NCBI GenBank assembly: GCA_017531485.1
Contig: JAFXKY010000001.1
Location: 1-64,000 of the forward strand
Reading direction: 5' to 3'
DNA from: Eubacteriaceae bacterium
GTDB taxonomy: Bacteria > Bacillota > Clostridia > Eubacteriales > Anaerofustaceae
Length of the DNA stretch: 64,000 nt
Part shown: positions 41,906-61,294 of the stretch, one piece after another
Layout of the letters: each line of letters starts with the position of its first letter
Position numbering within the stretch: the first letter of the stretch is position 1
The notes under the pieces: model-generated
The model's database searches: none
Seen by the model: the letters and a program-made list of their open reading frames with translations, nothing else
What the model was told of the DNA's origin: nothing
Made by a program: the position numbers and the translations under genes

Positions 41906-43726
41906 TTATCTTCCGATATATTCTCCGAGACCAAGTCTTTCAAGTGTTTCATCTGTCGGGAATGCATCTACCCAGCCGCGTTCCTTATAATATTCGGGAA
42001 GTGTTACGTTGAGTTTTGATGTCATGCCTTTTGACGGACCTTCTTTAACCGGTTCTTCGAGAAGTCTCTTCGGGAGACGGTCATCTTCCGGTTTCATGCC
42101 TGCTGCTTTGTTGAAGAGTCTTTCGATGTTGTAGATTCTTTCGCCGAGAAGGAGAACTTCTTCCGGAGTATATTCTGTTCCGCAAGCTGCATTGATGAGT
42201 TTTGTGTATTCCGGAGCGCCGAGAGCGAATGATGTGAAGAGGCAAAGACCCATAGAGTCGATTACTGCTGTGAGATCCTGGAATGTCTTAGCCCAGAATG
42301 CCTTTTCGTTTGTAACTGTTCTGTCGAGCTGTACGGGAAGACCAACAACTTCCGGAGCGATCGTATATCCACGAACGTGGCAGCCGCCGCGGTTTGATGT
42401 AGCGTATGTGATACCGATACCCTGAACCCCACGTGCGTCATAAGCGGGCATTTCCTGCTTTTTAACTGACATTGAAACTTCCGGCATACCGTAGTGTTCA
42501 CAAAGTCTTGCTGAACCTGAAGACATGAGCCAGTCAAGTTCTGTTTCCGGGTTTCCGATGCGTTTTGTCCATTCGATGAGAGCTTCTGTGCTTCCCCATA
42601 CGAGCGGAACGCCTGCACATTCTTCTTCTTTGATTGCGCCTTTTTCATAAAGTTCCATAGCTGCAGCGATAGTGCAGGGAACTGAGATAGCGTCAAGACC
42701 GTATTCGTTGCAGAGCATGTTTGCTTTGTTGATAGCAGCGAGATCGCTGTTACCCATGTTTGCGCCATAAGCCCAGAGCGGTTCATATTCCGGTCCGCCA
42801 ACAACTTTGTCGTCAACTTTTACCACACGACCGCAAGCGATCGGGCAACGGTGGCATGCACTTGCCTTAACGAGGAATTTTTCTGCGAGAGCTTCGCCTG
42901 AAACATCTTCAGCTTTTTCATAGTAAGATTCCTGCCAGTTCTTTGTGGGGAGTGAACCTACGCTGTTGATTACGTTTACGAGTGATGCAGTACCGAGAGC
43001 TCTGAGTCCTCCGCCTGTGAGGCCGTTTTCGCGGATGTTTACCATAACTTCCTTGTTTGCTGCCTTAAGAGCTTCTTCGGAAGCGATTACGTCATTGGGG
43101 TTCGTTCTTGTAGCTTTTACCACGATACCCTTGAGTTTTTTGGATCCCATAACAGCACCTACGCCGGAACGTCCTGCCGCACGGTCTTTGTCGTTCATGA
43201 TAGCAGCCATAAGAACCTGCTTTTCACCTGCGATACCGATTGAAAGAACTGAAGCTTCTTTGCCGTGTTTTTCTTTGAGTTTGTCGTCGAGTTCTTCTGA
43301 GAACATTCCGAGATATTCATCTGCGTCGAGAAGTTCGATCTTGTCATCAACGATGTTTAAGTATTTCCATGTTTCACTCATACCTTCAACGATGATAGCA
43401 TCCCAGCCGGCATATTTGAGTTTAGCACCCCATTTGCCGCCTGAGTTTGAGCATGCGATCATGCCTGTGAGGGGGGATTTTGTTACTACCATGTATCTTC
43501 CTGAAGAAGGAGCTGCGGCACCTGTGAGGGGACCTGTGATGTAGATAAGTTTATTGCCTTCGCCAAGCGGATCGCTTGTAGCGCAGCCTTCGTCGTAAGC
43601 GATCTTTGTTCCGAGACCGCGTCCGCCGATGTATTTTTTAGCAACTTCAACGTCAAGAGCTTCAACTGTGATCTCACCTGTTGTAAGGTTGACGCGAGCA
43701 ATTTTTTCATAATAAGCGTTAGCCAT
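41906..43726 (-). CDS. aor: Aldehyde ferredoxin oxidoreductase (tungsten-type)
   Basis: 606 residues, the usual length. An N-terminal AOR domain (YIGGRGLGTKIAYDEG, FTPLTGA-like ITGPLTGAAAP, GGKWGAKLKYAGWDAI) binds the bis-pterin cofactor. The [4Fe-4S] ligands are Cys291, Cys294 and Cys298 (CHRCPIAC), plus a Cys near 498 (SMGLCLF). It oxidises aldehydes to carboxylic acids with ferredoxin as acceptor, in the cytoplasm. The tungstate importer and the radical SAM protein nearby favour tungsten over molybdenum. The substrate is unknown. It lies divergent from the regulator, with its own promoter. Confidence 0.95.
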   Translation of the reverse strand: MANAYYEKIARVNLTTGEITVEALDVEVAKKYIGGRGLGTKIAYDEGCATSDPLGEGNKLIYITGPLTGAAAPSSGRYMVVTKSPLTGMIACSNSGGKWGAKLKYAGWDAIIVEGMSETWKYLNIVDDKIELLDADEYLGMFSEELDDKLKEKHGKEASVLSIGIAGEKQVLMAAIMNDKDRAAGRSGVGAVMGSKKLKGIVVKATRTNPNDVIASEEALKAANKEVMVNIRENGLTGGGLRALGTASLVNVINSVGSLPTKNWQESYYEKAEDVSGEALAEKFLVKASACHRCPIACGRVVKVDDKVVGGPEYEPLWAYGANMGNSDLAAINKANMLCNEYGLDAISVPCTIAAAMELYEKGAIKEEECAGVPLVWGSTEALIEWTKRIGNPETELDWLMSSGSARLCEHYGMPEVSMSVKKQEMPAYDARGVQGIGITYATSNRGGCHVRGYTIAPEVVGLPVQLDRTVTNEKAFWAKTFQDLTAVIDSMGLCLFTSFALGAPEYTKLINAACGTEYTPEEVLLLGERIYNIERLFNKAAGMKPEDDRLPKRLLEEPVKEGPSKGMTSKLNVTLPEYYKERGWVDAFPTDETLERLGLGEYIGR

Positions 43727-44024: not shown

Positions 44025-44960
44025 ATGGTCCAGGAAAAATCACTCTCAACACAACAGGTCGCAGACATACTCCACGTGTCACGGTCCACCATATATGAAC
44101 TCATAAAGAAAGGCGAGATCCAGTCCTACAAGATAGGCAGAAAAGTCCGCTTCACACAGGATGACGTCGATGCGTACATCTCCCGCAGCCGTCATCAGCA
44201 CTCCACAAAGCCCGTAAAAAAAATAGAGACCCACTCTACTCTTCTCGTTCCGGAAGAGCGCACAGAGCCGGAATTCATTCTCTCGGGACAGGATGTGGTA
44301 CTCGATATTCTCGCCAATTACCTTCAGGATGCGGATGTAAACGTTATCAGAACATACCTTTCGGGATTTGAAGGATTATTATCATTATATCAGGATAATA
44401 TTCACGCTGCAGCATGCCACCTTTACGACGGAGAGCAGTATAACACTTCATTCGTAAAGAGCCTCATGCCCGGAGTCAGCGCAGTCCTTGTCAATGTAAG
44501 TTACAGAAAGCAGGGATTTTATGTCCGTTCGGGAAACCCAAAGAGAATAACCGGCTGGCAGGATCTGAAAAGAAAAGACATCAGGATCATCAACCGCAGA
44601 GTCGGTTCGTCCGCAAGGATCCTTCTTGACACAAATCTCAAGAGCCTCGGGATCTCACCTGCAAACGTAAAAGGATACGACAATATAATGAAATCTCACC
44701 TCACCGTCGCCTCTGCCATCGCTTCGGGAGAAGCTGATCTGGCGCTCGGAACGGAAAGGATCTCAAAGCAGATAGATGAGATAGACTTCATCCCTCTCAT
44801 GGAAGAGAGATTCGATCTCGTGATCAAAAAAGATATGCTCGAAGATGAATCCGTGCAGAAGCTTCTCAGAATTCTCCGCAGCAAGGAATTCAGAAGAGAG
44901 GTTTCAAGATTCACTGATAATGATTACAGAGATCTCGGAAAGATAATATCGGAGGTATAA
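44025..44960 (+). CDS. HTH plus PBP-like oxyanion-responsive regulator
   Basis: 311 residues: an excisionase-type helix-turn-helix (1-60: LSTQQVADILHVSRSTIYELIKKGEI, VRFTQDDVDAYI) joined to a COG1910-type periplasmic-binding-like domain (about 95-305: AAACHLYDGEQYN, SGEADLALGTERI, IDFIPLMEERFDLVI). Such proteins sense molybdate/tungstate or the cofactor. It opens a plus-strand operon of moeA, a moeA fusion, two FAD enzymes and moaA-moaC-mogA. Its binding domain matches the tail of the MoeA fusion two genes on. Likely regulator of the divergent promoters. Confidence 0.85.
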   Translation: MVQEKSLSTQQVADILHVSRSTIYELIKKGEIQSYKIGRKVRFTQDDVDAYISRSRHQHSTKPVKKIETHSTLLVPEERTEPEFILSGQDVVLDILANYLQDADVNVIRTYLSGFEGLLSLYQDNIHAAACHLYDGEQYNTSFVKSLMPGVSAVLVNVSYRKQGFYVRSGNPKRITGWQDLKRKDIRIINRRVGSSARILLDTNLKSLGISPANVKGYDNIMKSHLTVASAIASGEADLALGTERISKQIDEIDFIPLMEERFDLVIKKDMLEDESVQKLLRILRSKEFRREVSRFTDNDYRDLGKIISEV

Positions 44961-46184
44961 ATGTTAAGTGTAAAAAGACCCGAAGAGGTCATTGAAATAA
45001 TCAACACGGAATTCTCCCACATCGCCGGCGAAGAATTCGTTCCCCTGACAAAATCCCTCGGCAGAGTCCTCGCAAGGGACATTACCGCCGACGAATACGT
45101 TCCCGACTTTGACCGTTCTACAGTCGACGGATATGCCGTCTTTTCACGCGACACATTCGGTTGCACGGAAGCGATCCCCGCGATCCTGCCTGTTGTCGGA
45201 GAGATTCTCATGGGACAGGCGGCAGAAAAAGATCTCAATCCCGGAGAATGTTACGCAATTCCCACAGGTGGCGCCGTACCCAAAGGAGCAGACAGCGTCG
45301 TGATGATAGAATACACCGAAGATTACGGCGACGGAACCATCGGAATAATGAAATCCACAGCTCCCGGAATGAATATGATCTTCCGCGGCGATGACGTATA
45401 TCCGGGAAAGACAGTCCTGAAAAAAGGAAGGATCATCTCCTCTCAGGACATCGGCGCAATGGCATCCATGGGCATCACGGAAGTCCCCGTAACAAAGAAG
45501 CTCACCGTCGGAATAATCTCAACAGGTGATGAACTCATTCATCATTCACAAAAGCCCATCGGCGGACAGATCAGGGACGTCAACAGCCCGATGCTTGAGA
45601 GTATGCTCGAAGCATTCGGAGTAAATACGGTAAATTACGGCATCATAATCGATGATGAAGAACTGCTTGAAAAGAAAGTGAATGAGGCTGTCAGTGAATG
45701 TGACGTCGTCATCCTTTCAGGCGGAAGCAGCGTCGGGGTGAAGGATGCGGCATGCAGAATAATTGAATCCTTCGGCACGATCCTCCTTCACGGAATCGCC
45801 ATCAAGCCGGGAAAACCGACGATCCTCGGAAAGACGAATGACCAGAAAGCTCTCGTCGGTCTTCCGGGACACCCCGTTGCAGCATATTTCATCACAAAAC
45901 TCTTTGTCCTTCCCCTCCTCGCGAAGCTGGAAACGAGAGAGATGAAGACATACACCATCAGCGCGAAAGTAACGGAAAACATCAGCGCAAACCACGGCAG
46001 GGCACAGTATCAGGCATGCCACTTCTTTGAAAAGGACGGAGAGCTCTTCGCACAGCCCATCCGCGGCAAATCCGGACTCATCACATCCCTTGCAGGAGCA
46101 GACGGATATTTCGAGATCCCCCGCGACTGTGAAGGATTAAGACAATATGAAACAATTCAGATCATCGTAAGTACAGGAGAGTAA
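44961..46184 (+). CDS. moeA: Molybdopterin molybdotransferase MoeA
   Basis: 407 residues with the MoeA domains in order: N-terminal part with DFDRSTVDGYAVFS, the MPT-binding domain (GIISTGDELI, DVVILSGGSSVGVKD, GLPGHPVAA) and a C-terminal beta-barrel. It inserts molybdate or tungstate into adenylylated molybdopterin. It follows the regulator without a gap. A second MoeA is encoded next; having two is common where both metals or two acceptors exist. Confidence 0.94.
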   Translation: MLSVKRPEEVIEIINTEFSHIAGEEFVPLTKSLGRVLARDITADEYVPDFDRSTVDGYAVFSRDTFGCTEAIPAILPVVGEILMGQAAEKDLNPGECYAIPTGGAVPKGADSVVMIEYTEDYGDGTIGIMKSTAPGMNMIFRGDDVYPGKTVLKKGRIISSQDIGAMASMGITEVPVTKKLTVGIISTGDELIHHSQKPIGGQIRDVNSPMLESMLEAFGVNTVNYGIIIDDEELLEKKVNEAVSECDVVILSGGSSVGVKDAACRIIESFGTILLHGIAIKPGKPTILGKTNDQKALVGLPGHPVAAYFITKLFVLPLLAKLETREMKTYTISAKVTENISANHGRAQYQACHFFEKDGELFAQPIRGKSGLITSLAGADGYFEIPRDCEGLRQYETIQIIVSTGE

Positions 46185-46185
46185 C

Positions 46186-48096
46186 ATGAGTTTTGAATAT
46201 CTTACAAACGTGCCTCTTTATAAGGCAAAAGAAGACTATATTGAATTTCTGACTAAAAAAGGCTTTACTCACGAGGCGGAAACAATCCCCGTTTTTGAAG
46301 CCGCAGGCAGAATCACTGCAGAGGCAATTTATGCACACATCTGCGCGCCGCATTATGCCGCAAGCGCTATGGACGGCGTGGCAGTAAATGCGAAAGATAC
46401 TTTCGGAGCAACAGAAACCACACCGAAAGTCCTTCCGCAGGATAAATACATCGTCGTTGACACAGGCGATCCGATTCCAGACGGATGCGACGCTGTAATC
46501 ATGGTCGAAGACATCGTAAAGACAGAAGACGGCTGCATCACTATCCATGAATCCGCATCACCCTGGCAGCATATCCGTCAGATCGGCGAAGACATCTGCG
46601 CAGGAGAAATGATCCTTCCGTCATTCATGCCCGTTTCGCCTTCCGCTATCGGTGCGATGATCGCAGGAGGAGTTCTCGAGATAAGTGTCATCAGAAAACC
46701 CGTCGTCGGAATTATTCCCACAGGCGATGAGATCATCCCGCCCTGCACAGACCCGAAAGAAGGCGACATCCTCGAATTCAACGCATCCATCTTCTCATCA
46801 ATGGTCAAAAACTGGGGCGCGGATGCGAAGATATACCCCATCGTTCCGGACAAATTTGATGAAATAAGGGATATGGTGAAAAAAGCGTCCGAAGAATGTG
46901 ACATGGTCATCCTCAACGCAGGTTCTTCAGCAGGCAGAGAAGACTATTCCGTAAGTGTTATCCGTCAGCTCGGTGAAGTCCTTTATCACGGCATCGCAAT
47001 GAAGCCCGGAAAGCCCGCTATCCTCGGATGTGTCGGAAGCGTTCCCGTTTTAGGCGTTCCCGGATATCCCGTATCGGGCATCATCGTCGTGGAAGAACTC
47101 TTAAAACCCATTATCGAAAAGTGGCTCAAAGTGTCTGCAGACGAAAGAATTTACGAAAAAGCAACTCTCACACGCCCTGTCGTTTCAGGACTCAAATATG
47201 AAGAATTCGTAAGAGTCAGAATGGGATATGTCGGCGGCAAGCTCATGGCATCTCCCCTTTCGAGAGGAAGCGGCGTAGTATCTTCATTCATGAAAGCCGA
47301 CGGTATCCTTGAAATCTCTCAGGAAACAGAAGGTTATGAAGCGGGAAAAGAAGTCACAGTACGTCTTTTAAGTAAAAAAGAAAAGCTTGAAAACACCCTC
47401 GTCGTCATCGGAAGTCACGATCCTCTCCTTGACGAACTTGCGGATATGATGCATATCGACAACAACGACATTTATATGTCAAGTTCACACGTCGGCTCAA
47501 TGGGCGGCATTATGGCAATCAGACGCGGCGAAGCTCATGCGGCAGGATGCCACCTTCTGGATACGGTAACGGGAGAATACAACATCTCCTTCATGAAGAA
47601 ATATTTCCCCGCAGGCGGAGCAAAGCTCATCCGCTGTGTCGGACGTCAGCAGGGACTTATGGTTGCGAAAGACAATCCTCTCGGAATCACAAAATTCGCC
47701 GACATCAAAAATGAAGGCGTAAGATACGTCAACCGCCAGAAAGGCTCCGGAACAAGGATCCTCGCAGATTATCTCTGCGAAAAAGAAGGCATTGAACAAT
47801 CAGAAATATACGGATATGACCGCGAAGAACTCACCCACACATCCGTTGCCGCACAGATCGCTTCGGGAAGTGCTGATGCAGGTATGGGAATCTATTCCGC
47901 GGCAAAACTGTATGACCTTGATTTCATCCCCATCTGCATTGAAGAATATGACCTCATTATCCCCGACCACGCATGGGACAGCCCGATGGTGAAACAGCTC
48001 ATCGAAACGTTAAAGAGCGACACATTCAAAGAAAAGATCCTCTCCATGGGCGGCTACACCATCGAAAATGCGGGAGAAGAGATAATAATAAAATAA
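46186..48096 (+). CDS. MoeA fused to a PBP-like oxyanion-binding domain
   Basis: 636 residues. The MoeA part (about 1-395) has YAASAMDGVAVNA, GIIPTGDEIIP, MVILNAGSSAGRED and GVPGYPVSG. The second half (about 410-630) is a COG1910-type binding domain (AHAAGCHLLDTVTGEYN, RYVNRQKGSGTRILAD, GSADAGMGIYSAAK) like that of the regulator. The fusion may hand the bound oxyanion to the transferase site or sense it, which is inference. The start is one base after the upstream stop (TAACATG). Confidence 0.93.
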   Translation: MSFEYLTNVPLYKAKEDYIEFLTKKGFTHEAETIPVFEAAGRITAEAIYAHICAPHYAASAMDGVAVNAKDTFGATETTPKVLPQDKYIVVDTGDPIPDGCDAVIMVEDIVKTEDGCITIHESASPWQHIRQIGEDICAGEMILPSFMPVSPSAIGAMIAGGVLEISVIRKPVVGIIPTGDEIIPPCTDPKEGDILEFNASIFSSMVKNWGADAKIYPIVPDKFDEIRDMVKKASEECDMVILNAGSSAGREDYSVSVIRQLGEVLYHGIAMKPGKPAILGCVGSVPVLGVPGYPVSGIIVVEELLKPIIEKWLKVSADERIYEKATLTRPVVSGLKYEEFVRVRMGYVGGKLMASPLSRGSGVVSSFMKADGILEISQETEGYEAGKEVTVRLLSKKEKLENTLVVIGSHDPLLDELADMMHIDNNDIYMSSSHVGSMGGIMAIRRGEAHAAGCHLLDTVTGEYNISFMKKYFPAGGAKLIRCVGRQQGLMVAKDNPLGITKFADIKNEGVRYVNRQKGSGTRILADYLCEKEGIEQSEIYGYDREELTHTSVAAQIASGSADAGMGIYSAAKLYDLDFIPICIEEYDLIIPDHAWDSPMVKQLIETLKSDTFKEKILSMGGYTIENAGEEIIIK

Positions 48097-48097
48097 T

Positions 48098-49417
48098 ATG
48101 AAAAAATATGACTCTGTCGTCATCGGTGGAGGTGTTCTCGGAGCATTCGTCCTTCGCAGTCTCCGCCGTTACGACATATCATGCATACTCCTTGAAGCTT
48201 CCGGCGACATCGCAGGCGGCATCACAAGGGCAAACACCGCAATAGTTTACACAGCTTCTGACAACCGCCCCGGAAGCCTGAAAGCGGAAATGGCGAAGAG
48301 AGCGAATGAAAATTTTCATGAGCTTTGTAACGACCTCGGAGTTCGGTTCTCCCGATGTGGCTCCCTTATGGTATCTTTCGGAGAAAAGGGTGATGAAGTT
48401 TTAAGAAAAAAACTCATTCAGGGAGAAGAAAACGGCGTCAGGGGCATGAAGATAATAAGCGGAAGCGAAGCGAAAATGCTTCAGCCACTTCTTTCCGAAA
48501 ATGTCACAACAGCACTTTATTCCCCCATGACAGGAACGGTGAATCCGTGGGAGCTGACTATCGCCGCTTTCGAAAACGCAGTCCAAAACGGCGCACAGGC
48601 TAAGATGAACGCAAAAGTCATCGACATAATCCCCACAGACGAAGGTTATGAAGTCAAGACCGAAAATGACGTTTTTTTCGCAAAGACCGTCTTTAACTGC
48701 GCAGGTCTTGAAGCGGACAAGATCCACAGCCTTGTCAGTAATGACGGGATCAGACTCAGCATCGACGGCGCGGATTTTATAGTATTTGACAAATACGCTC
48801 CAAAGCCTGATATGATAATTTTCCACGAAACGGAAAACGGCAAAGGAATAACCGCCGTCCCCACCGTCGAAGGCAACCTCATCGTGGATTCTCCACCGAG
48901 AGAGGCGGATAATTCCTTTGATACCACGTCAGAGGGACTTGACTACATCATTGAAAACTTAAACAAGGTACTGCCGGAGCTTGATACCAAGCGCATTATC
49001 CGCTCATTCGGCGCTCTCCGCCCGAATCCTCACAAGCCCGACGGCAGAAGCATCCACTCGTTCTGCATCGAAAATCCTTCCCCGGGATTTTACAGCCTTA
49101 TCGGAATAAAAACTCCGGGACTTACCTGCGCAGACGAGATCGGAAAATATCTCGCAGGCTTTGCCGTAGAATATCTTTCTGCGAAAATAAATGAGGATTT
49201 CGACCCTGTAAGAAAGACAGGTGATCACATCGGAGGAGAGATCATCTGCCTTTGTGAGAATATCACGAAAGGCGAAATAATCTCAGCAATAAAGCGCGGC
49301 GCAAAAGACATCCACGGCATAAAACGGCGCACAGGCGCCTTAATGGGAAAATGTCAGGGGTCAAGATGCAGTATTAAGATAAAGAAGATACTGGAGGAAT
49401 ATAATGAAACATTATGA
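48098..49417 (+). CDS. FAD-dependent oxidoreductase with BFD-like [2Fe-2S] domain
   Basis: 439 residues of the GlpA/DAO type. FAD-binding VIGGGVLGAFVLRSLRRYD is at the N-terminus, a DAO fold follows, and a C-terminal BFD-like domain holds IICLCENITKGEI and GKCQGSRC (CxC and Cx4C ligands). It overlaps the next FAD enzyme by 14 bp and sits between the MoeA and MoaA genes. The pair resembles the two flavoprotein subunits of GlpABC-type dehydrogenases. An electron-transfer or redox role in the aldehyde/tungsten pathway is inferred from position. Confidence 0.8.
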   Translation: MKKYDSVVIGGGVLGAFVLRSLRRYDISCILLEASGDIAGGITRANTAIVYTASDNRPGSLKAEMAKRANENFHELCNDLGVRFSRCGSLMVSFGEKGDEVLRKKLIQGEENGVRGMKIISGSEAKMLQPLLSENVTTALYSPMTGTVNPWELTIAAFENAVQNGAQAKMNAKVIDIIPTDEGYEVKTENDVFFAKTVFNCAGLEADKIHSLVSNDGIRLSIDGADFIVFDKYAPKPDMIIFHETENGKGITAVPTVEGNLIVDSPPREADNSFDTTSEGLDYIIENLNKVLPELDTKRIIRSFGALRPNPHKPDGRSIHSFCIENPSPGFYSLIGIKTPGLTCADEIGKYLAGFAVEYLSAKINEDFDPVRKTGDHIGGEIICLCENITKGEIISAIKRGAKDIHGIKRRTGALMGKCQGSRCSIKIKKILEEYNETL

Positions 49418-50264
49418 CGTCCTCGTCATCGGCGGCGGGATCGCAGGGATCTCAGCGGCAAAAGCCCTCGACGGACTGAAGGTGCTGCTCGTGGAGAAAA
49501 GTGACCGCCTCGGCGGAATTCTGAATCAATGTCTGCATCGCGGATTCGGCAAAGACATGACCGGCCCGGAATACATTTCGGGAATACTTTCCGATTTTCC
49601 GGAAAATATAAATGTAGCACTGAAAACTGCCGTAACCGACATCACTCCCCAAAAGACAGCGACTCTCCGTCATGAAAATTCCACAGAAGAAATATCATTT
49701 TCAGAACTCATCCTTGCGACAGGATGCATGGAACGCCCGACGGGGCATATGCTTATTGCAGGAAGCAGACCCGAAGGGGTATATACCGCAGGTCAGGTGC
49801 AGGAGATGATCAATATCCACGGAATCATTCCCCCGTCCCCTGCTGTCATCCTCGGAAGCGGAGATATCGGACTTATCGTCGCAAAACATCTTTTTGAAAA
49901 CAACGTTGAAGTCACGATCGTCGAGATAAAAGATCAGCTCGGCGGCCTTGCGAGAAACAGAATGTGGCTTGAAGGGTATGATGTAAAGATAATGATTAAT
50001 ACTACCGTAAAAAAGATCCTCGGTGAAGAAAGTATAAATGGCGTCGTCCTTACTGACGGCACACACATCCCTGCAAAAACACTCATTGCCGCAACGGGGC
50101 TCATTCCCGACAGAGAGATCCTTAAATATAAAAACTACCCTTTTGAAATCCACATCTGCGGAAACTGCAAAGAAGTCTTTCCCATGGTCGAAGGCGTGGC
50201 AAGAGACGCCGAAAGAGCCGCAAATGCAGCTATTGAAAATATAAGGAGAAACAATGATAGATAA
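49404..50264 (+). CDS. FAD/NAD-binding oxidoreductase, partner flavoprotein
   Basis: 286 residues: DVLVIGGGIAGISAAKALDG (FAD site), ATGCMERPTG, a second nucleotide site AVILGSGDIGLIVAKHL and AATGLIPDREILK. The CGNCKE near the end gives a CxxC. It overlaps its upstream neighbour by 14 bp and MoaA by 11 bp, so translation of the three is tightly coupled. It likely moves electrons between NAD(P)H and the partner flavoprotein. The physiological substrate is unknown. Confidence 0.8.
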   Translation: MKHYDVLVIGGGIAGISAAKALDGLKVLLVEKSDRLGGILNQCLHRGFGKDMTGPEYISGILSDFPENINVALKTAVTDITPQKTATLRHENSTEEISFSELILATGCMERPTGHMLIAGSRPEGVYTAGQVQEMINIHGIIPPSPAVILGSGDIGLIVAKHLFENNVEVTIVEIKDQLGGLARNRMWLEGYDVKIMINTTVKKILGEESINGVVLTDGTHIPAKTLIAATGLIPDREILKYKNYPFEIHICGNCKEVFPMVEGVARDAERAANAAIENIRRNNDR

Positions 50265-51207
50265 ACACGGCAGAAAAATAAATTATATGCGCATATCCCT
50301 CACAGAGCGCTGCAACCTGCGCTGTCGTTATTGTATGCCGGAAGACGGCATTGTAAAGAAATCCCATGACGATATGCTAACGGAAGATGAAGTGATAAAC
50401 GCAGTAAAAGCCGCATCGTCGCTCGGGATAACAAAGATAAGATATACCGGTGGCGAACCGCTTATCAAGAAAAATATCGTCAATATCTGCGAACGCACAT
50501 CAGAAATCGACGGCATTGAAGAGATCTGCATCACAACAAACGGAATAATGCTTCCGACTCTCGCAAAGCCATTAAGGGAAGCGGGAGTAAGCAGGCTGAA
50601 CCTCAGCCTTGACAGCCTGAACGAAGAAAAATATTCTTACATCACAAGAACAGGCAAGCTCTCAGGTTTTATGGACGGATTTCACGCAGCTCTTGATGCA
50701 GGGTTTGAGAAGATTAAGATAAATGCGGTCCTCATCGGCGGATTTAATGATGATGAGATAGAATCTCTCGCAGAACTTACGATGAAATATCCCGTAGATA
50801 TGCGGTTTATTGAAATGATGCCTATGTACGACAGCGGAGACTTTGACGAAAACGCGTTTATTTCCTACAAAAAAGTCCTTGAAGTTCTCCCTCAGCTCTC
50901 TCCCGTCGAAAAAGACGGAGGAGTTGCAAAGCTTTACAGGCTTCCCGGCGCTCTCGGAAACATTGGTCTTATCAGCCCCATAAGCGCACACTTCTGCTTT
51001 GACTGCAACCGCATCCGTCTCACCGCAGACGGAAAAGTCAAACCGTGCCTGCATTCCGATGATGAATATTCCCTCAAAGGGCTCGACCTTGACGGAATGA
51101 CGGAAGTATTAAAGGAAGCTATCTGGCACAAGCCTTCATGGCACGGAGAACTCGATGCGAAACACAGAAGCAAAGCCGGCAGGAACATGAATCAGATCGG
51201 AGGATAA
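50254..51207 (+). CDS. moaA: GTP 3',8-cyclase MoaA
   Basis: 317 residues. The N-terminal radical-SAM cluster is Cys20, Cys24 and Cys27 (CNLRCRYC). The second cluster motif is CFDCNRIRLTADGKVKPC, and the C-terminal GG (NQIGG) is kept. TGGEPL is present. It converts GTP to the 3',8-cyclo intermediate, the first step of molybdopterin synthesis. It is followed immediately by moaC. Confidence 0.96.
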   Translation: MIDKHGRKINYMRISLTERCNLRCRYCMPEDGIVKKSHDDMLTEDEVINAVKAASSLGITKIRYTGGEPLIKKNIVNICERTSEIDGIEEICITTNGIMLPTLAKPLREAGVSRLNLSLDSLNEEKYSYITRTGKLSGFMDGFHAALDAGFEKIKINAVLIGGFNDDEIESLAELTMKYPVDMRFIEMMPMYDSGDFDENAFISYKKVLEVLPQLSPVEKDGGVAKLYRLPGALGNIGLISPISAHFCFDCNRIRLTADGKVKPCLHSDDEYSLKGLDLDGMTEVLKEAIWHKPSWHGELDAKHRSKAGRNMNQIGG

Positions 51208-51208
51208 T

Positions 51209-51688
51209 ATGACGGACTTTACACACTTCAACGACAAAGGCTACGCAAAAATGGTTGACGTCGGAGAGAAGAATATAACAAAGAGAACAGCAACTGCAGG
51301 CGCAAGGGTGAAAGTAAACGAGAACACCTTCGCCCTCATCAAAAGCGGCGGAATGAAAAAAGGCGATGTGCTGACAGTAGCGCAGATCGCGGGAGTAATG
51401 GGCGCGAAGAAAACCCCTGAGATCATCCCCATGTGTCACCCTATCCTTATGGACGGCATCGATCTTGACATCACTCTTTCGGAAGAAACCCTCACAGTTG
51501 AGATCAGAGCGACTGTAAGCTGTGACGGAAGGACGGGAGTTGAAATGGAAGCCCTCAGCGCTGCGACGATCGCTTCGCTCACGGTTTATGATATGTGCAA
51601 GGCAGTGCAGAAAGATATTGAAATTACCGACATCCGCCTTATCTCAAAAACAGGCGGAGTTCACGGAGATTTTTTCAGGGAGGAATAA
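51209..51688 (+). CDS. moaC: Cyclic pyranopterin monophosphate synthase MoaC
   Basis: 159 residues, usual length. Motifs MVDVGEKNITKRTATA, IIPMCHPILM, DGRTGVEMEAL and YDMCKAVQKD cover the substrate pocket and catalytic His/Lys. It converts the MoaA product to cyclic pyranopterin monophosphate. One base separates it from moaA. Confidence 0.96.
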   Translation: MTDFTHFNDKGYAKMVDVGEKNITKRTATAGARVKVNENTFALIKSGGMKKGDVLTVAQIAGVMGAKKTPEIIPMCHPILMDGIDLDITLSEETLTVEIRATVSCDGRTGVEMEALSAATIASLTVYDMCKAVQKDIEITDIRLISKTGGVHGDFFREE

Positions 51689-55508: not shown

Positions 55509-55690
55509 GGTAAAAGAAGGCATCCCCAAAGCTGGGGTATAAAGTTTTGAAAAAAGGTGGACGAGCCCTTTTCGAAACAAGGATACATATCAACCGATGT
55601 ACCCATATTGTTTTGAGAGGATCGTCATTTTTTATGTTCACAATTTTGTGAAAACTATGGCTGACGCCACAATATTTCAGGAGGAAAAAA
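55509..55690 (+). ncRNA. Structured 5' leader of tupA, riboswitch candidate
   Basis: The leader can fold into several stems: CCCC/GGGG around AAAGCT; AAAAGG and CCCTTTT; TACAT and ATGTA; AACAA and TTGTT; and GGC near its start with GCC near its end. GGATCGTC followed by ATTTTTT could pair with the earlier GACGAGCC, offering a terminator-like alternative. The Moco/Tuco RNA class is expected before such genes, but the consensus could not be confirmed by eye. Confidence 0.4.
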
Positions 55691-55693
55691 GAA

Positions 55694-56668
55694 ATGAAAA
55701 AATTACTTGCTCTTCTTCTTGCAGTTATGATGATCGTATCATTCGCTGCTTGCGGAAGCAAAGACGACGACAAACAGAACGAAGTTGTCGTAAACACAAC
55801 AATTCTCAAAGAAGCTGATGACAAGATGCTCAACACATACTCAGTCATCGCTGTAAACCCGGAAGCACCGTTTGAAGATGCTGACAAAAATCCGGTAACA
55901 GACGTTATCATCAACACTGCAGGCGCAGAAGCTCTCTATCAGTGGCTCGTATCTAAAGAAGCTCTCGATATGGCTGGCAAATACGGCGTTGAAGAATACG
56001 GATCAAACCTCTTCTATGTAAAAGAAGATGCTCCCGTTTATGAAGGCGAAATCGCTCAGGCAACAGAAGAAACAAAAGCTATCCGTCTTTCAACAACAAC
56101 ATCAGTTAAAGACTCAGGTCTTCTCGGAAAATTACTTCCGGAATTCGAAAACAAATACGGATACAAAGTAGAAGTTTACTCAGCAGGCACAGGCAAATCA
56201 ATTGCAAACGCTAAGATGGGTAACGCTGACATCATCCTCGTTCACTCAAAGAGCCAGGAAGAAGCTTTCATCAACGCAGGTTTTGCAAAAGTTGTTAACG
56301 GCTTCACAGCTGAAAGAACATCCTTCATCTACAACTACTACGTTCTCTGCGGTCCGTCTGAAGACCCGGCAGGCGTTAAGAATGCTGCAACAGTAACAGA
56401 TGCTTTCAAACTCATCGCTGACGGAAAACACAAATTCATCTCTCGTGGTGACGCATCAGGCACACACACAAAAGAAATCTCACTCTGGCCGGCTGAACTC
56501 GGAATCACAGCAGATGCAGCAAGCTTTGCTAACTACACAGAATGGTACACATCTGCTAACACAGGCATGGGCGCTTGCCTCGTAATGGCTGAAGAATCAG
56601 ATGCTTACATCCTCACAGACAAAGCTACATTCCTTACATTCGTTTCCAACGACGGAGTTATGAACTAA
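55694..56668 (+). CDS. tupA: Tungstate-binding lipoprotein TupA, circularly permuted
   Basis: 324 residues: a lipoprotein signal with lipobox FAAC (Cys20), then residues 31-112 (MLNTYSVIAVNPE, WLVSKEALDMAGKYGVEEYG, NLFYVK). In TupA proteins this segment forms the C-terminal end (LLNPYxxIAVNPE, FGxxxFGxPLF). Only after it come the usual N-terminal parts: LSTTTSVKDSGLL (132-144), GNADIILVHSKSQEE, and RGDASGTHTKE (251-261). The protein stops at DAYILTDKATFLTF, where the missing segment would normally follow. The oxyanion motifs TTTS and RGDxSGTH are intact. It delivers tungstate to TupBC. Confidence 0.88.
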   Translation: MKKLLALLLAVMMIVSFAACGSKDDDKQNEVVVNTTILKEADDKMLNTYSVIAVNPEAPFEDADKNPVTDVIINTAGAEALYQWLVSKEALDMAGKYGVEEYGSNLFYVKEDAPVYEGEIAQATEETKAIRLSTTTSVKDSGLLGKLLPEFENKYGYKVEVYSAGTGKSIANAKMGNADIILVHSKSQEEAFINAGFAKVVNGFTAERTSFIYNYYVLCGPSEDPAGVKNAATVTDAFKLIADGKHKFISRGDASGTHTKEISLWPAELGITADAASFANYTEWYTSANTGMGACLVMAEESDAYILTDKATFLTFVSNDGVMN

Positions 56669-56700: not shown

Positions 56701-56729
56701 AATCCCGTGGGCTATCCCACGGGATTTTA
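56701..56729 (+). terminator. Terminator or attenuator between tupA and tupB
   Basis: AATCCCGTGGG and CCCACGGGATT form a perfect 11-bp stem around CTAT, then TTT. Partial read-through would make the binding protein in excess over the permease. Confidence 0.7.
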
Positions 56730-56761: not shown

Positions 56762-57448
56762 ATGAAAACCTCAATACTCAAAGCCATTGAACTCATATTG
56801 TCAATGGATGCGGAACTCATAGACATTTTGTCCGTAACGGCAAAAATGTCCATACAAAGTTCTCTCATCGCCCTTTTGATAGGTCTTCCCATCGGAATAA
56901 TCCTCGGCGGATATGAATTCCCCGGAAAGAATATACTCCTTATCCTCAACCGCACCTTAATGGGCACACCGCCTGTCGTATGCGGGCTGATATTTTATAT
57001 GCTTTTTTCAGGCGTCGGACCGTTTCGCCACTTAAAGCTGTTATTCACCGTTGAGATAATGGTCCTCGCGCAGGTATTTCTCATCACTCCGATAATTATC
57101 GGCAACGTGGAAAGCTTTATTTCCACCATCGCGCCGAATGTAAAAGAAACGGCAAAAGGCCTTGGATTCTCTCACATAAAGACGCTGTTTCTTATTATAA
57201 ACGAATCTGTCTATCAGATATTCTCCGCATACCTCCTCGCCTTCTCCCGTTCAATCGCGGAAGTCGGCGCCGTATCTATGGTCGGAGGTGCAATATCATG
57301 GAAGACGAATGTAATGACCACGGCAATCATGCAATACACTAACCGCGGAAACTTCACACTCGGCGTTGCGCTGGGAATGATCCTGCTTAGTGTATCGCTT
57401 ATAGTCAATATAATCATTTCGATAATGCAGAGGAGGCTTTCAAAATGA
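56762..57448 (+). CDS. tupB: Tungstate ABC transporter permease TupB
   Basis: 228 residues with about five to six membrane helices. The family signature EETAKGLGFSHIKTLFLI-like loop (NVKETAKGLGFSHIKTLF) contacts the ATPase, and FSRSIAEVGAVSMVGGAI is typical of TupB/ModB-like permeases. It lies between TupA and TupC, and overlaps tupC by 4 bp. Confidence 0.9.
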   Translation: MKTSILKAIELILSMDAELIDILSVTAKMSIQSSLIALLIGLPIGIILGGYEFPGKNILLILNRTLMGTPPVVCGLIFYMLFSGVGPFRHLKLLFTVEIMVLAQVFLITPIIIGNVESFISTIAPNVKETAKGLGFSHIKTLFLIINESVYQIFSAYLLAFSRSIAEVGAVSMVGGAISWKTNVMTTAIMQYTNRGNFTLGVALGMILLSVSLIVNIIISIMQRRLSK

Positions 57449-58101
57449 TAAAAATACCTCCCCTGAAAAAAACTTACTCCTCCCGCACAGTCCTCGACTT
57501 CCCCGGAACGGACCTTGAAAAAGGCAGGATATATGCCGTTATCGGCTCCAACGGAAGCGGTAAATCCACTTTTGCGAAGATCCTCTCCGGAATGATAAAG
57601 GATGATGACAAACAAAAACTCTTTAAGGATATCGCTGTGGGATATATGCCGCAAAGGAATTATTCCTTCCGTATGAGCGTCGTCAGAAACATCCTTCTCG
57701 GCGGAAAAGACCCTTCCCTTGCAAATGAACTTATGGAAAGGCTGAAAATATCTCATCTGAAAGATAAAAGGGCAAAATCTCTCTCCGGCGGAGAAACGGC
57801 AAGAATGGCGCTGGCAAGGCTTATGATGGGAAAATATGATATCGTAATCCTCGATGAACCCACTTCCGCTATGGATATGGAAAGCTCCCTTCTTACAGAA
57901 GAACTCATAAAGGAATACGTAAAAAATACAAACTGCGCCCTTATCCTCATTACCCACAGCCTTCAACAGGCGAAGCGGATCGCAGACGATGTGCTGTTTT
58001 TCCACAAAGGCAGTCTTCTTGAATACGGGAGCGCCGAAAAAGTGCTTTACGAACCTGAAAACGCAGAAACGAAGAAATTTCTTGAATTCTATGGATCATA
58101 G
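57445..58101 (+). CDS. tupC: Tungstate ABC transporter ATPase TupC
   Basis: 218 residues: Walker A GSNGSGKSTFAKIL, Q-loop region GYMPQRNYSFRMS, signature LSGGETARMALARLMMG, Walker B IVILDEPTSAMD and the His of ITHSLQQAK. It powers TupB. Shorter than many import ATPases, with no C-terminal regulatory domain. ATGA overlap with tupB. Confidence 0.93.
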   Translation: MIKIPPLKKTYSSRTVLDFPGTDLEKGRIYAVIGSNGSGKSTFAKILSGMIKDDDKQKLFKDIAVGYMPQRNYSFRMSVVRNILLGGKDPSLANELMERLKISHLKDKRAKSLSGGETARMALARLMMGKYDIVILDEPTSAMDMESSLLTEELIKEYVKNTNCALILITHSLQQAKRIADDVLFFHKGSLLEYGSAEKVLYEPENAETKKFLEFYGS

Positions 58102-58109
58102 GAGAAAAT

Positions 58110-59213
58110 ATGCTCAGAAAGCTATATATAGAACCGACAAATAAATGTAATCTCAACTGTAAGATGTGCTTCAGAAACACATGGTTTGACGAAGCAATCT
58201 GCGAAATGACCCTTGAGGAATATAAATATGTCCTTGAGAGTATGCCCCACACCGTTGAAAAGATCTTCTTCGGCGGAATGGGAGAACCGATGGTTCATAA
58301 GGATATTTTCGAGATGATATCCCTCGCTTCCCATAAATGCGAGGAAGTCGAGCTTATAACAAACGGAACCCTTCTGAATGAACAGACGATAACGTCCCTC
58401 ATTGATTCGGGACTGACGAAACTCTGGATCTCCATAGACGATCTTGATACGGAAAATCCGACCCTATATTCAGGGCACGACAACTCATCGTCGGTCTTAA
58501 ACGGAATAAGGCTGTTCAACCGTATCCGACAGATAAAAATGACGGGAGTCGGGCTCGGAATAACGTTCGTTGCCACTCGCTCAAACGTTCATCAGCTCGC
58601 AAAGCTCCCGTTTTTCACAGCTCAATACCTCATCGACGAAGTCAATATCTCCAACATCTCCCCGACAGATGAAGATTCCAAAGACGAAATGCTTTACAGG
58701 AATATGGTGAATATGTTCACAGGCCCCGCAAAAGGCAACGTTCTTCCGAAAGTCAACATTCCCTATTTTGACATGAGCATCCCGGAAGCCGCAGACGGAA
58801 TAAGGGAACTGATGATAAAGCAGAATTTCGAGATGTTTTTCAATGATCAGAGAGTGATGCGCAGAACTTCTTACTGCAAATTCGTCAGCGAGGGAATGTG
58901 CTTTGTCCGCAGCGACGGAAACGTTTCGCCGTGCATGGCGCTGTTGCATAACGGATATACGTACTTAAACGACGTAAAGCGCACCATTCACTACGCCACC
59001 TTCGGTAATGCCAAAGAAACTCCCCTCTCCGACATCTGGAACTCCGAAGAATACCGCGCTTTCCGAAAGAAAGTCATAGATTTTGATTTCTCACCGTGTA
59101 TTTACTGCGGTCATTGCGATCTTTTTGAAGAAAACAACGAAGACTGCATCGGTAACACCCACCCCACCTGCGGCGGATGCCTCTGGGCGGAGGGAGTTCT
59201 GAGTTGTCCTTAA
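58110..59213 (+). CDS. Radical SAM/SPASM protein of the tungsten-oxidoreductase type
   Basis: 367 residues. The N-terminal [4Fe-4S] motif is CNLNCKMCF (Cx3Cx2C); GGMGEPMVHKD follows. The C-terminal SPASM region has many cysteines (CKFVSEGMC, CIYCGHCDLF, CIGNTHPTCGGC). It resembles the radical SAM maturases found beside aldehyde ferredoxin oxidoreductases. A maturation step for the tungsten enzyme is expected from that family. Last gene of the tup operon, 8 bp after tupC. Confidence 0.88.
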   Translation: MLRKLYIEPTNKCNLNCKMCFRNTWFDEAICEMTLEEYKYVLESMPHTVEKIFFGGMGEPMVHKDIFEMISLASHKCEEVELITNGTLLNEQTITSLIDSGLTKLWISIDDLDTENPTLYSGHDNSSSVLNGIRLFNRIRQIKMTGVGLGITFVATRSNVHQLAKLPFFTAQYLIDEVNISNISPTDEDSKDEMLYRNMVNMFTGPAKGNVLPKVNIPYFDMSIPEAADGIRELMIKQNFEMFFNDQRVMRRTSYCKFVSEGMCFVRSDGNVSPCMALLHNGYTYLNDVKRTIHYATFGNAKETPLSDIWNSEEYRAFRKKVIDFDFSPCIYCGHCDLFEENNEDCIGNTHPTCGGCLWAEGVLSCP

Positions 59214-59266: not shown

Positions 59267-61294
59267 TTATTTCGTCAAAACCGATGATTTGTTGTTTGCA
59301 TAACGCAGGATCTGTGTTGCATCAAGCGCGTTTACTTTGCCGTTTCCGTCAACATCCGCCGCCTTGAACATAGCTGAGCCTTCTTCTCCCGTCAGTGAAG
59401 ATGACTTGTTGTTTGCGAATCTGAGGATCTGTGTTGCGTCAAGTGCGTTTACTTTGCCGTCACCGTTAGCATCCCCAAGCTCATATTTTTCATCAGCTAC
59501 TACTAAGTCAATCTCAGCCTTCGCATCAGAGATTATCTTCGCAACTTCTTCGACAGTCGCAGCCTTTTCAATATCTGCCTCAGCGTCTGCAATGATCTTT
59601 GCGATCTCTTCTTTCAGAACATCTTCGTAATCCTCAGGATCCACATAATTTCCAAGTTCTTCAGCAGCATCTTCTTTAGCTTTTGCAAGTTCTTCGGCTT
59701 TCAACTGTTCATCTGTCTTCAGCGCATCAAGCTTCGATTTTGCTTCCGTTACGATAAGAATAATCTCTTCAGGAGTCTTAGCTTCCATAAGTTTATTCTG
59801 AGCATCAATAACGATCTGTGCGATCCGGGATTTTTCCGCATCGCGGTAATCTTCAACCGCTACATAATCCGTTATTGCATCCATAGCAGATTCAATAATA
59901 TCCATTTCGTCTTTTGTTGGAACCGTATCAAGCTTCGCTTTCATTTCTGTCACGATCGCCGCTACTTCTTCCTGAGACTTCGCACCTGCTATTGCTGCAT
60001 CTGCGGCCCGAACGATCTGAGAAATCTGTTCTTTCTGCTCTTCGCGATATTCTTCCGTGTCGAGATATCCGCCTACTGTTTCCACAGCCGCTTCTTTGAT
60101 TTCCTCAAGAACTTTTGCCTCTTCTTCCACAGTAAGTTCAGCATCTGTCTTGACTGCATCAAGCTTGGATTTTGCTTCTTCTGCAATCTTGGCTGCTTCA
60201 TCTTTGGTCGTTGCCGCATCAAGTTTATCCTGAGCATCTTTTACGATCTGAGAAATTTCGGCCTGCTGTTCTTCTCTGTAATTGTCATATCCCAGAGTTT
60301 CGGCAAAATCAGCCACTTCTTCTTTTGCATTGGTTATGGCCTTCTGAATTTCTTCGATCTCCTTGATAAGCTCTTCGCATTTTTCCTTGATTTCCTGAAG
60401 TTCTTTCTTCGTTTCTTCACTTACACCTGTAAGATCTACATTTTCGATAGATTCGATAATGGCTTTGATGTTTTCTTCATTTGCAACTGTTACGTTTTCC
60501 TTTGTAATACTTTCGATAAGCCCGCTGTCGGGAAGGATCATGAAGTATGCAGAAACACTTCCTACAGCGGAAGAATTTTCCGCCGGTGTTACGACAACCT
60601 TATATGATCCGACATTTACAAATCCGCCTTCGTATGATACGTTGTAAAGCTCTTCATCAAGGGTAAGTCCGCCGAATAATACTGACAAGGCAGGTTTATG
60701 TTCGTTTCCGTCGCAGATAGCATCTTCGCTTGCAAGTTTGATTTTTGCATGAGAAAAATCGAAAGTCTTTGTAATGAGGTTTCCTTTGATATCCTCAGGA
60801 TTTGTACCCATATCCGCAGGAAGAGAGGTCTGAGTATCGTAAAGTGCATATCCGTCATTGATCATTCCGGCGATGACTGAATCAGCTCCCTGATATCCTT
60901 CCGGGAATTTTACATTTTCTCCTACATTGATTTTTGCAGAGCCGTTTTCTTCTACTGCGCCGTAAACAGTGCAGCCTGAAAGATTTACAGTTGTTCCTGC
61001 CTGTTCATCGGAGAATACATAAAATGCGCTATCGCCGCTGATGGTTCCGCCGTTTATATTCAGTGTTCCACCGTCTACCATTACGGCAATTTTATTTCCG
61101 CTTCCATCACCGGAGATTTCCGTTACGTCAGTATCTTTTAATGTAACCGTTCCGCTGCCGATATACACAGCTTCGTATGTTCCTTCAAGTGTGCAGTCTG
61201 TAAATTCAGCGTTGCCGTAAGAACACAAAGCTTCCGATGCGGAATTGATCACAACATTTTTCGCCTTGAATATGCCGCCGTTTTCAACAGACAC
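59267..61294 (-). CDS. FIVAR/dockerin part of a surface protein (downstream of a frameshift)
   Basis: 675 residues. The first 280 continue a beta-helix/carbohydrate-recognition-like region (INGGTISGDSAFYVFSDEQ, ILPDSGLIESITKENV). Then come helical FIVAR-like units (YREEQQAEISQIVKDAQDKL, AKSKLDAVKTDAELT; about four), and a C-terminal type I dockerin (DANGDGKVNALDATQILRF, DVDGNGKVNALDATQILRY). The frame should be joined to the one upstream: SVENGG continues the NGITIEYADGG of the previous frame after a one-base shift near 61300-61306, so a protein over 1,570 residues is likely or was once made. The dockerin would bind a cohesin partner. Confidence 0.85.
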   Translation of the reverse strand: MSVENGGIFKAKNVVINSASEALCSYGNAEFTDCTLEGTYEAVYIGSGTVTLKDTDVTEISGDGSGNKIAVMVDGGTLNINGGTISGDSAFYVFSDEQAGTTVNLSGCTVYGAVEENGSAKINVGENVKFPEGYQGADSVIAGMINDGYALYDTQTSLPADMGTNPEDIKGNLITKTFDFSHAKIKLASEDAICDGNEHKPALSVLFGGLTLDEELYNVSYEGGFVNVGSYKVVVTPAENSSAVGSVSAYFMILPDSGLIESITKENVTVANEENIKAIIESIENVDLTGVSEETKKELQEIKEKCEELIKEIEEIQKAITNAKEEVADFAETLGYDNYREEQQAEISQIVKDAQDKLDAATTKDEAAKIAEEAKSKLDAVKTDAELTVEEEAKVLEEIKEAAVETVGGYLDTEEYREEQKEQISQIVRAADAAIAGAKSQEEVAAIVTEMKAKLDTVPTKDEMDIIESAMDAITDYVAVEDYRDAEKSRIAQIVIDAQNKLMEAKTPEEIILIVTEAKSKLDALKTDEQLKAEELAKAKEDAAEELGNYVDPEDYEDVLKEEIAKIIADAEADIEKAATVEEVAKIISDAKAEIDLVVADEKYELGDANGDGKVNALDATQILRFANNKSSSLTGEEGSAMFKAADVDGNGKVNALDATQILRYANNKSSVLTK

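Follow-up and report, generated by a model that had tools for sequence, protein, structure and literature searches.

A naturally circularly permuted TupA, putative tungstate-binding lipoprotein of a TupABC importer

TpMglB-2 (Tp0684) of Treponema is a circularly permuted glucose-binding lipoprotein with a type I fold, for which a type Ic / cluster Bc has been proposed (PMC4990184). In the literature found, in which subscription journals are thinly covered, it is the one natural permutation described for a binding protein; none was seen in TupA or in a type II binding protein, and natural circular permutation is apparently rare among substrate-binding proteins. In Desulfovibrio TupA, lobe A comprises residues 2-76 and 201-251 and lobe B residues 91-200; the pseudo-symmetry of TupA's two lobes has been noted, and the oxyanion-site residues are TTTS, His59, Arg118, Thr124, and Asp170 (PMC5517513). 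Here we describe a TupA with its two segments in swapped order, encoded in a 64,000-nt stretch of DNA from a Eubacteriaceae bacterium (the whole of which is referred to as the window). We are highly confident that this protein is a naturally circularly permuted TupA that serves a TupABC importer as its tungstate-binding lipoprotein; tungstate binding, docking, the route of origin, and the cause of the permutation are the parts that we infer.

Order of the TupA segments

The permuted tupA gene occupies positions 55694-56668 of the plus strand and encodes 324 aa in one stop-free frame from an ATG start; an AGGAGG Shine-Dalgarno sequence was read on the same strand at about 55679 (55679-55684). 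The protein starts with a lipoprotein signal, MKKLLALLLAVMMIVSFAAC, whose signal peptide and lipobox (FAAC, Cys20) span 55694-55753 and include a modeled helix at residues 2-18. Three parts follow on the plus strand: a C-part (residues 33-111, 55790-56026), which corresponds to the usual end of TupA; a linker (residues 112-123, 56027-56062), which fills the gap between the two profile matches and bridges what used to be the C- and N-termini; and an N-part (residues 124-316, 56063-56641), recognized as TupA's usual beginning by the canonical profile, the fit to 3lr1, and the conserved site residues.

The protein belongs to PF12849 (PBP_like_2, 4.7e-26) and to the TupA sequence family, and it is homologous to TupA over both segments but does not have the canonical segment order. 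Positions 14-197 of the TupA profile NF041772 match 56072-56665, and positions 197-245 match upstream of them, at 55790-55969. The NF041772 score of 131.7 bits lies under the curated 400-bit cut-off, as do the scores of canonical TupAs from the same bacterial order, the best of which reaches 290. The same segment swap was returned by phmmer against 3lr1, 3muq, and 5my5; for example, residues 128-316 align with 5-178 of 3lr1 (E 3.7e-41) and residues 36-58 with 186-208, and residues 35-88 align with 184-226 of 3muq. A canonical profile built from 76 canonical TupAs of other genomes matched residues 124-316 with its positions 2-179 (219.9 bits) and residues 33-111 with its positions 183-250 (46.8 bits, E 9e-17); doubled head to tail, it gave a single unbroken match of positions 183-431 to residues 33-316 (273.7 bits). 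Residues 31-112 alone scored 50.7 bits against the canonical profile, compared with 11.9 bits for the best of 1633 scored shuffles. The C-part stands after the N-part in all 75 testable canonical TupAs, where 3-7 residues separate the positions equivalent to 316 and 33, so that the opening of new ends cost almost no sequence. No second C-terminal segment was found 3' of residue 324, where tupB follows as the next gene, at 56762, and an NF041772 profile search of the whole genome revealed no TupA matches beyond these two pieces. These results bear out the preliminary description, which had read residues 31-112 as the usual end of TupA, had placed this segment before the N-part, and had the protein stop where the C-terminal segment should follow. 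Neither outcome that it had named as speaking against this reading was observed: residues 31-112 do match the TupA C-terminal segment, and there is no missed segment after residue 316. The alignment to a doubled TupA and the search for homologues of the same order, which it had put forward as checks, both support the permutation.

When one genome of each species was scanned for homologues, at least 80 loci were obtained. Most are colinear with residues 1-323 and 57-80% identical to them; the assemblies bear the names Oscillospiraceae, Lachnospiraceae, Clostridia, and Coriobacteriales, and the majority come from the guts of ruminants and other hosts. A set of 80 distinct full-length permuted proteins includes the window protein and some relatives from genome searches; in 80/80, the C-part precedes the N-part, and in 80/80 the doubled profile outscores the single one. 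At permuted loci with enough sequence, tupA is always followed by tupB and then tupC. The window genome is a draft of 81 contigs, and the swap could be put down to a frameshift, a misassembly, or a local rearrangement of a canonical TupA in this one draft; however, we give that explanation next to no probability, because the gene is a single stop-free frame and about 80 relatives in independent assemblies, many of them from guts, share the order, the identity range, and the tupA-tupB-tupC operon.

In whole-genome samples, the permuted TupA is patchy. Among genomes with TupA, it was found in 3 of the 46 that made up the class sample, in 5/30 of family f6 (in one case spread over more than one contig), in 3/6 of family f31, and, within the window's own family, in genomes G013 and G015. 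Across the phylum, 187 TupA-bearing genomes were sampled, and apart from the window itself the matches listed were canonical. G013 carries both forms, a permuted tupA (L186, C36:2690-3652) and a divergent canonical tupA (L120, C220). In the permuted TupA of L078 (4521-5879), the lipobox region is separated from the C-part by about 110 additional residues, which have no Pfam match and are possibly an added small domain. An ordinary signal peptide with no lipobox cysteine is present in the permuted TupAs of L010, L012, L021, L023, L026, L027, L030-L032, L036, L038, L040, L048, L049, L055, L066, and L068, which is unusual for binding proteins in bacteria of the Gram-positive type.

Fold, lobes, and lipid anchor

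An AlphaFold2 model of the window protein was obtained from 56 permuted relatives, and its secondary structure was assigned by DSSP. The model has a mean pLDDT of 90.1 and a pTM of 0.79; the anchor linker (residues 20-31) is poorly defined and of low confidence. The N-part superimposes on 3lr1 over 181 residues (2.4 Å, Z 16.2) and on 5my5 over 180 residues (2.2 Å, Z 15.9), and the C-part was left unaligned by structure aligners working in sequence order, which is what a permutation predicts. The structural row of 4h1x (model residues 32-248) gives a hint of a lobe-shifted register.

In the alignment through 5my5, window residue 318 corresponds to chain residue 202 and window residue 37 to chain residue 212, both to be reduced by 23 tag residues; the break hence falls at about residues 180-188 of Desulfovibrio TupA, within lobe B. 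The modeled chain opens in lobe B with strand 35-39, passes into lobe A (strand 46-54; helices 75-85 and 88-102), runs through the whole of lobe A uninterrupted, crosses back at 208-221, and ends in lobe B. Mapped in this way through the published lobe limits, lobe A is predicted to be contiguous and lobe B split, the reverse of the canonical arrangement, with both lobe crossovers retained in the predicted path. The new termini map to lobe B and not lobe A, which supports the prediction that the lipid anchor has left lobe A for lobe B and agrees with the earlier claim that the anchor sits at a different edge of the fold.

Lipid anchoring is one idea offered for the permutation of TpMglB-2 (PMC4990184). 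Selection for a better placed anchor would fit the predicted move between lobes, and TpMglB-2 relatives are also known from Gram-positive gut bacteria (PMC4990184). However, the lipobox cysteine is missing in about 17 of the 76 permuted relatives with a readable N-terminus, and the anchor linker of the permuted relatives can be as short as 10 or as long as 138 residues, which argues against any strict requirement on anchor position; anchoring therefore cannot explain the permutation in general, and we consider such selection rather unlikely. We favor a permutation that was near neutral and was then fixed. Given the pseudo-symmetric lobes and a single tupB gene, whose product is presumed to form a homodimeric permease, moving the anchor would cost little. 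We tentatively suggest, as a possibility short of a probability, that a type II (ModA/TupA-type) substrate-binding protein is seen here for the first time with a natural circular permutation, which swaps the contiguous lobe and the anchor lobe and may have been tolerated or favored as the pseudo-symmetric protein docks on a homodimeric permease either way.

Tungsten neighborhood and oxyanion site

Downstream of tupA, the plus strand encodes a TupB-like permease of 228 aa (56762-57448; NF038017 3e-52, NF041773 TupB 5.1e-44) and a TupC-like ATPase of 218 aa (57445-58101; PF00005 4.2e-23, NF041774 3.3e-26). The gap between tupA and tupB contains a hairpin of 11 pairs (56701-56726) with a terminator score on the minus strand only. 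The best stretch of the ATPase corresponds to positions 1-211 of 319 in the NF041774 profile, and the C-terminal part of the TupC model is absent. Directly 3' of tupC, on the plus strand, is a gene for a radical SAM maturase of tungsten oxidoreductases (58110-59213; TIGR04317 5.2e-79, below the model cut-off). A member of the tungsten-containing aldehyde ferredoxin oxidoreductase family (WOR) is encoded on the minus strand at 41906-43726 (PF01314 6.5e-139; NF007354 5.6e-63) and is the sole PF01314 match in the window genome. Pyranopterin cofactor genes occupy 44025-51688 on the plus strand and encode an HTH-PBP protein, MoeA, MoeA-PBP, two flavoenzymes, MoaA, and MoaC; this tungsten-cofactor region also holds a ThiF/MoeB-like gene. 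No Rfam elements were found in the 64,000-nt window.

The cofactor operon is headed by a gene (44025-44960) whose product fuses an excisionase-type HTH to a PBP-like domain known from MoeA ends and is probably a ligand-sensing regulator. At 46186-48096, MoeA is fused to a PBP-like domain, and a separate MoeA gene adjoins it, an arrangement consistent with separate tungsten and molybdenum handling. A large minus-strand ORF at 59267-61294, unrelated to the transporter, ends in two dockerin-like repeats (GDANGDGKVNALDATQILRFANNK).

All TupA site residues are present in the window protein, as TTTS 134-137, H184, R251, T257, and D309, and the preliminary statement that the oxyanion motifs are kept thus holds; the same residues stand in 56/56 permuted rows, with a single T-to-S at 134 as the exception. 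TupABC is present in virtually all microbes that have class I-IV WORs (PMC13328260). A WOR was detected in each of the 10 permuted-TupA genomes tested, and a congener without permuted TupA (G001) is also without a WOR. Tungstate uptake is the best reading of these sequence data, and the permuted TupA would be expected to close on tungstate and hand it over to TupB/TupC like canonical TupA. Binding of another oxyanion, e.g., molybdate, is by our estimate very unlikely: specificity is undecided by sequence alone, molybdopterin genes are general, so that the cofactor genes could serve molybdenum too, and the ATPase is shorter than TupC, but the TTTS and Arg118 equivalents among the site residues, the pairing of a WOR with a tungsten radical SAM maturase at the locus, and the WOR in every permuted genome tested all point to tungstate.

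Origin of the permutation and comparison with known binding proteins

A tree was built from the 80 permuted and 76 canonical TupAs, with the permuted rows restored to canonical order. The permuted TupAs form one clade (100% SH-aLRT) among the canonical rows, on a stem branch of 0.78 changes per column. In separate trees of the N-part and the C-part, the neighbors of this clade are ten canonical rows, the same ten each time (support 97 and 91, respectively), so the two parts stem from one TupA lineage and no other family contributed the first piece. A fusion, considered possible for TpMglB-2 (PMC4990184), would mean that the first segment came from another binding-protein gene and merely resembles the TupA C-terminal segment; the long stem and a C-part about 11 residues longer than in canonical TupA would suit it, but it is extremely unlikely in view of the 46.8 bits that the C-part scores with a TupA-only profile and its placement beside the same relatives as the N-part. 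Collectively, the doubled-profile alignment, the same-order homologues, and the tree agree on a true circular permutation, as the preliminary description had proposed, and on this comparison of sequences one TupA lineage was permuted once. ModA, WtpA, and canonical TupA have one segment order in common; the permuted order is therefore derived.

Probably, an ancestral tupA was duplicated in tandem, the copies fused, and the outer pieces were then lost, which would have linked the original termini to each other and opened new ends in a lobe-B loop, at about residues 180-188 of Desulfovibrio TupA. Adjacent canonical tupA pairs occur at L127, L158, and L164, and G723, among the closest canonical relatives, has two canonical copies about 2.5 kb apart; such neighboring pairs could be the starting point of a route through duplication, fusion, and truncation. 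The ORFs of 182 loci included no C-N-C or N-C-N intermediate. A candidate trace of duplication in L079 and L082, the earliest-branching permuted loci, where profile positions 165-184 match at both ends, was rejected because the N-terminal copy is too weak.

The permuted TupA appears to be a transporter part that was re-wired with its metal-site residues and presumed job kept. Its single origin, canonical relatives, conserved site, and unchanged operon partners offer a direct test of where chain order matters in ABC importers, be it for the closing of the lobes, for anchoring, or for docking. Surveys of tungsten use by collinear TupA profiles detect the permuted proteins only partially.

With canonical TupA (NF041772; 3LR1, 5MY5), the permuted form shares both homologous segments, the site residues, the operon partners, and the fold elements, but its segments are swapped, its termini are predicted to lie in lobe B, and lobe A rather than lobe B would be contiguous. 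ModA and WtpA have a similar bilobed fold (Z about 9-11 against the N-part), but they have the canonical order and about 10% sequence identity. Like TpMglB-2, the window protein is a circularly permuted substrate-binding lipoprotein of natural origin, and both belong to clades of tethered proteins that include gut Gram-positives. However, TpMglB-2 has a type I fold to which a fourth lobe crossover was added, and its permuted part is 13% identical to the expected segment, whereas the window protein is not related to the type I sugar-binding proteins but belongs to the PF12849 PBP_like_2/TupA family, has a TupA/ModA-type fold with apparently no added crossover, and is clearly TupA in both parts.
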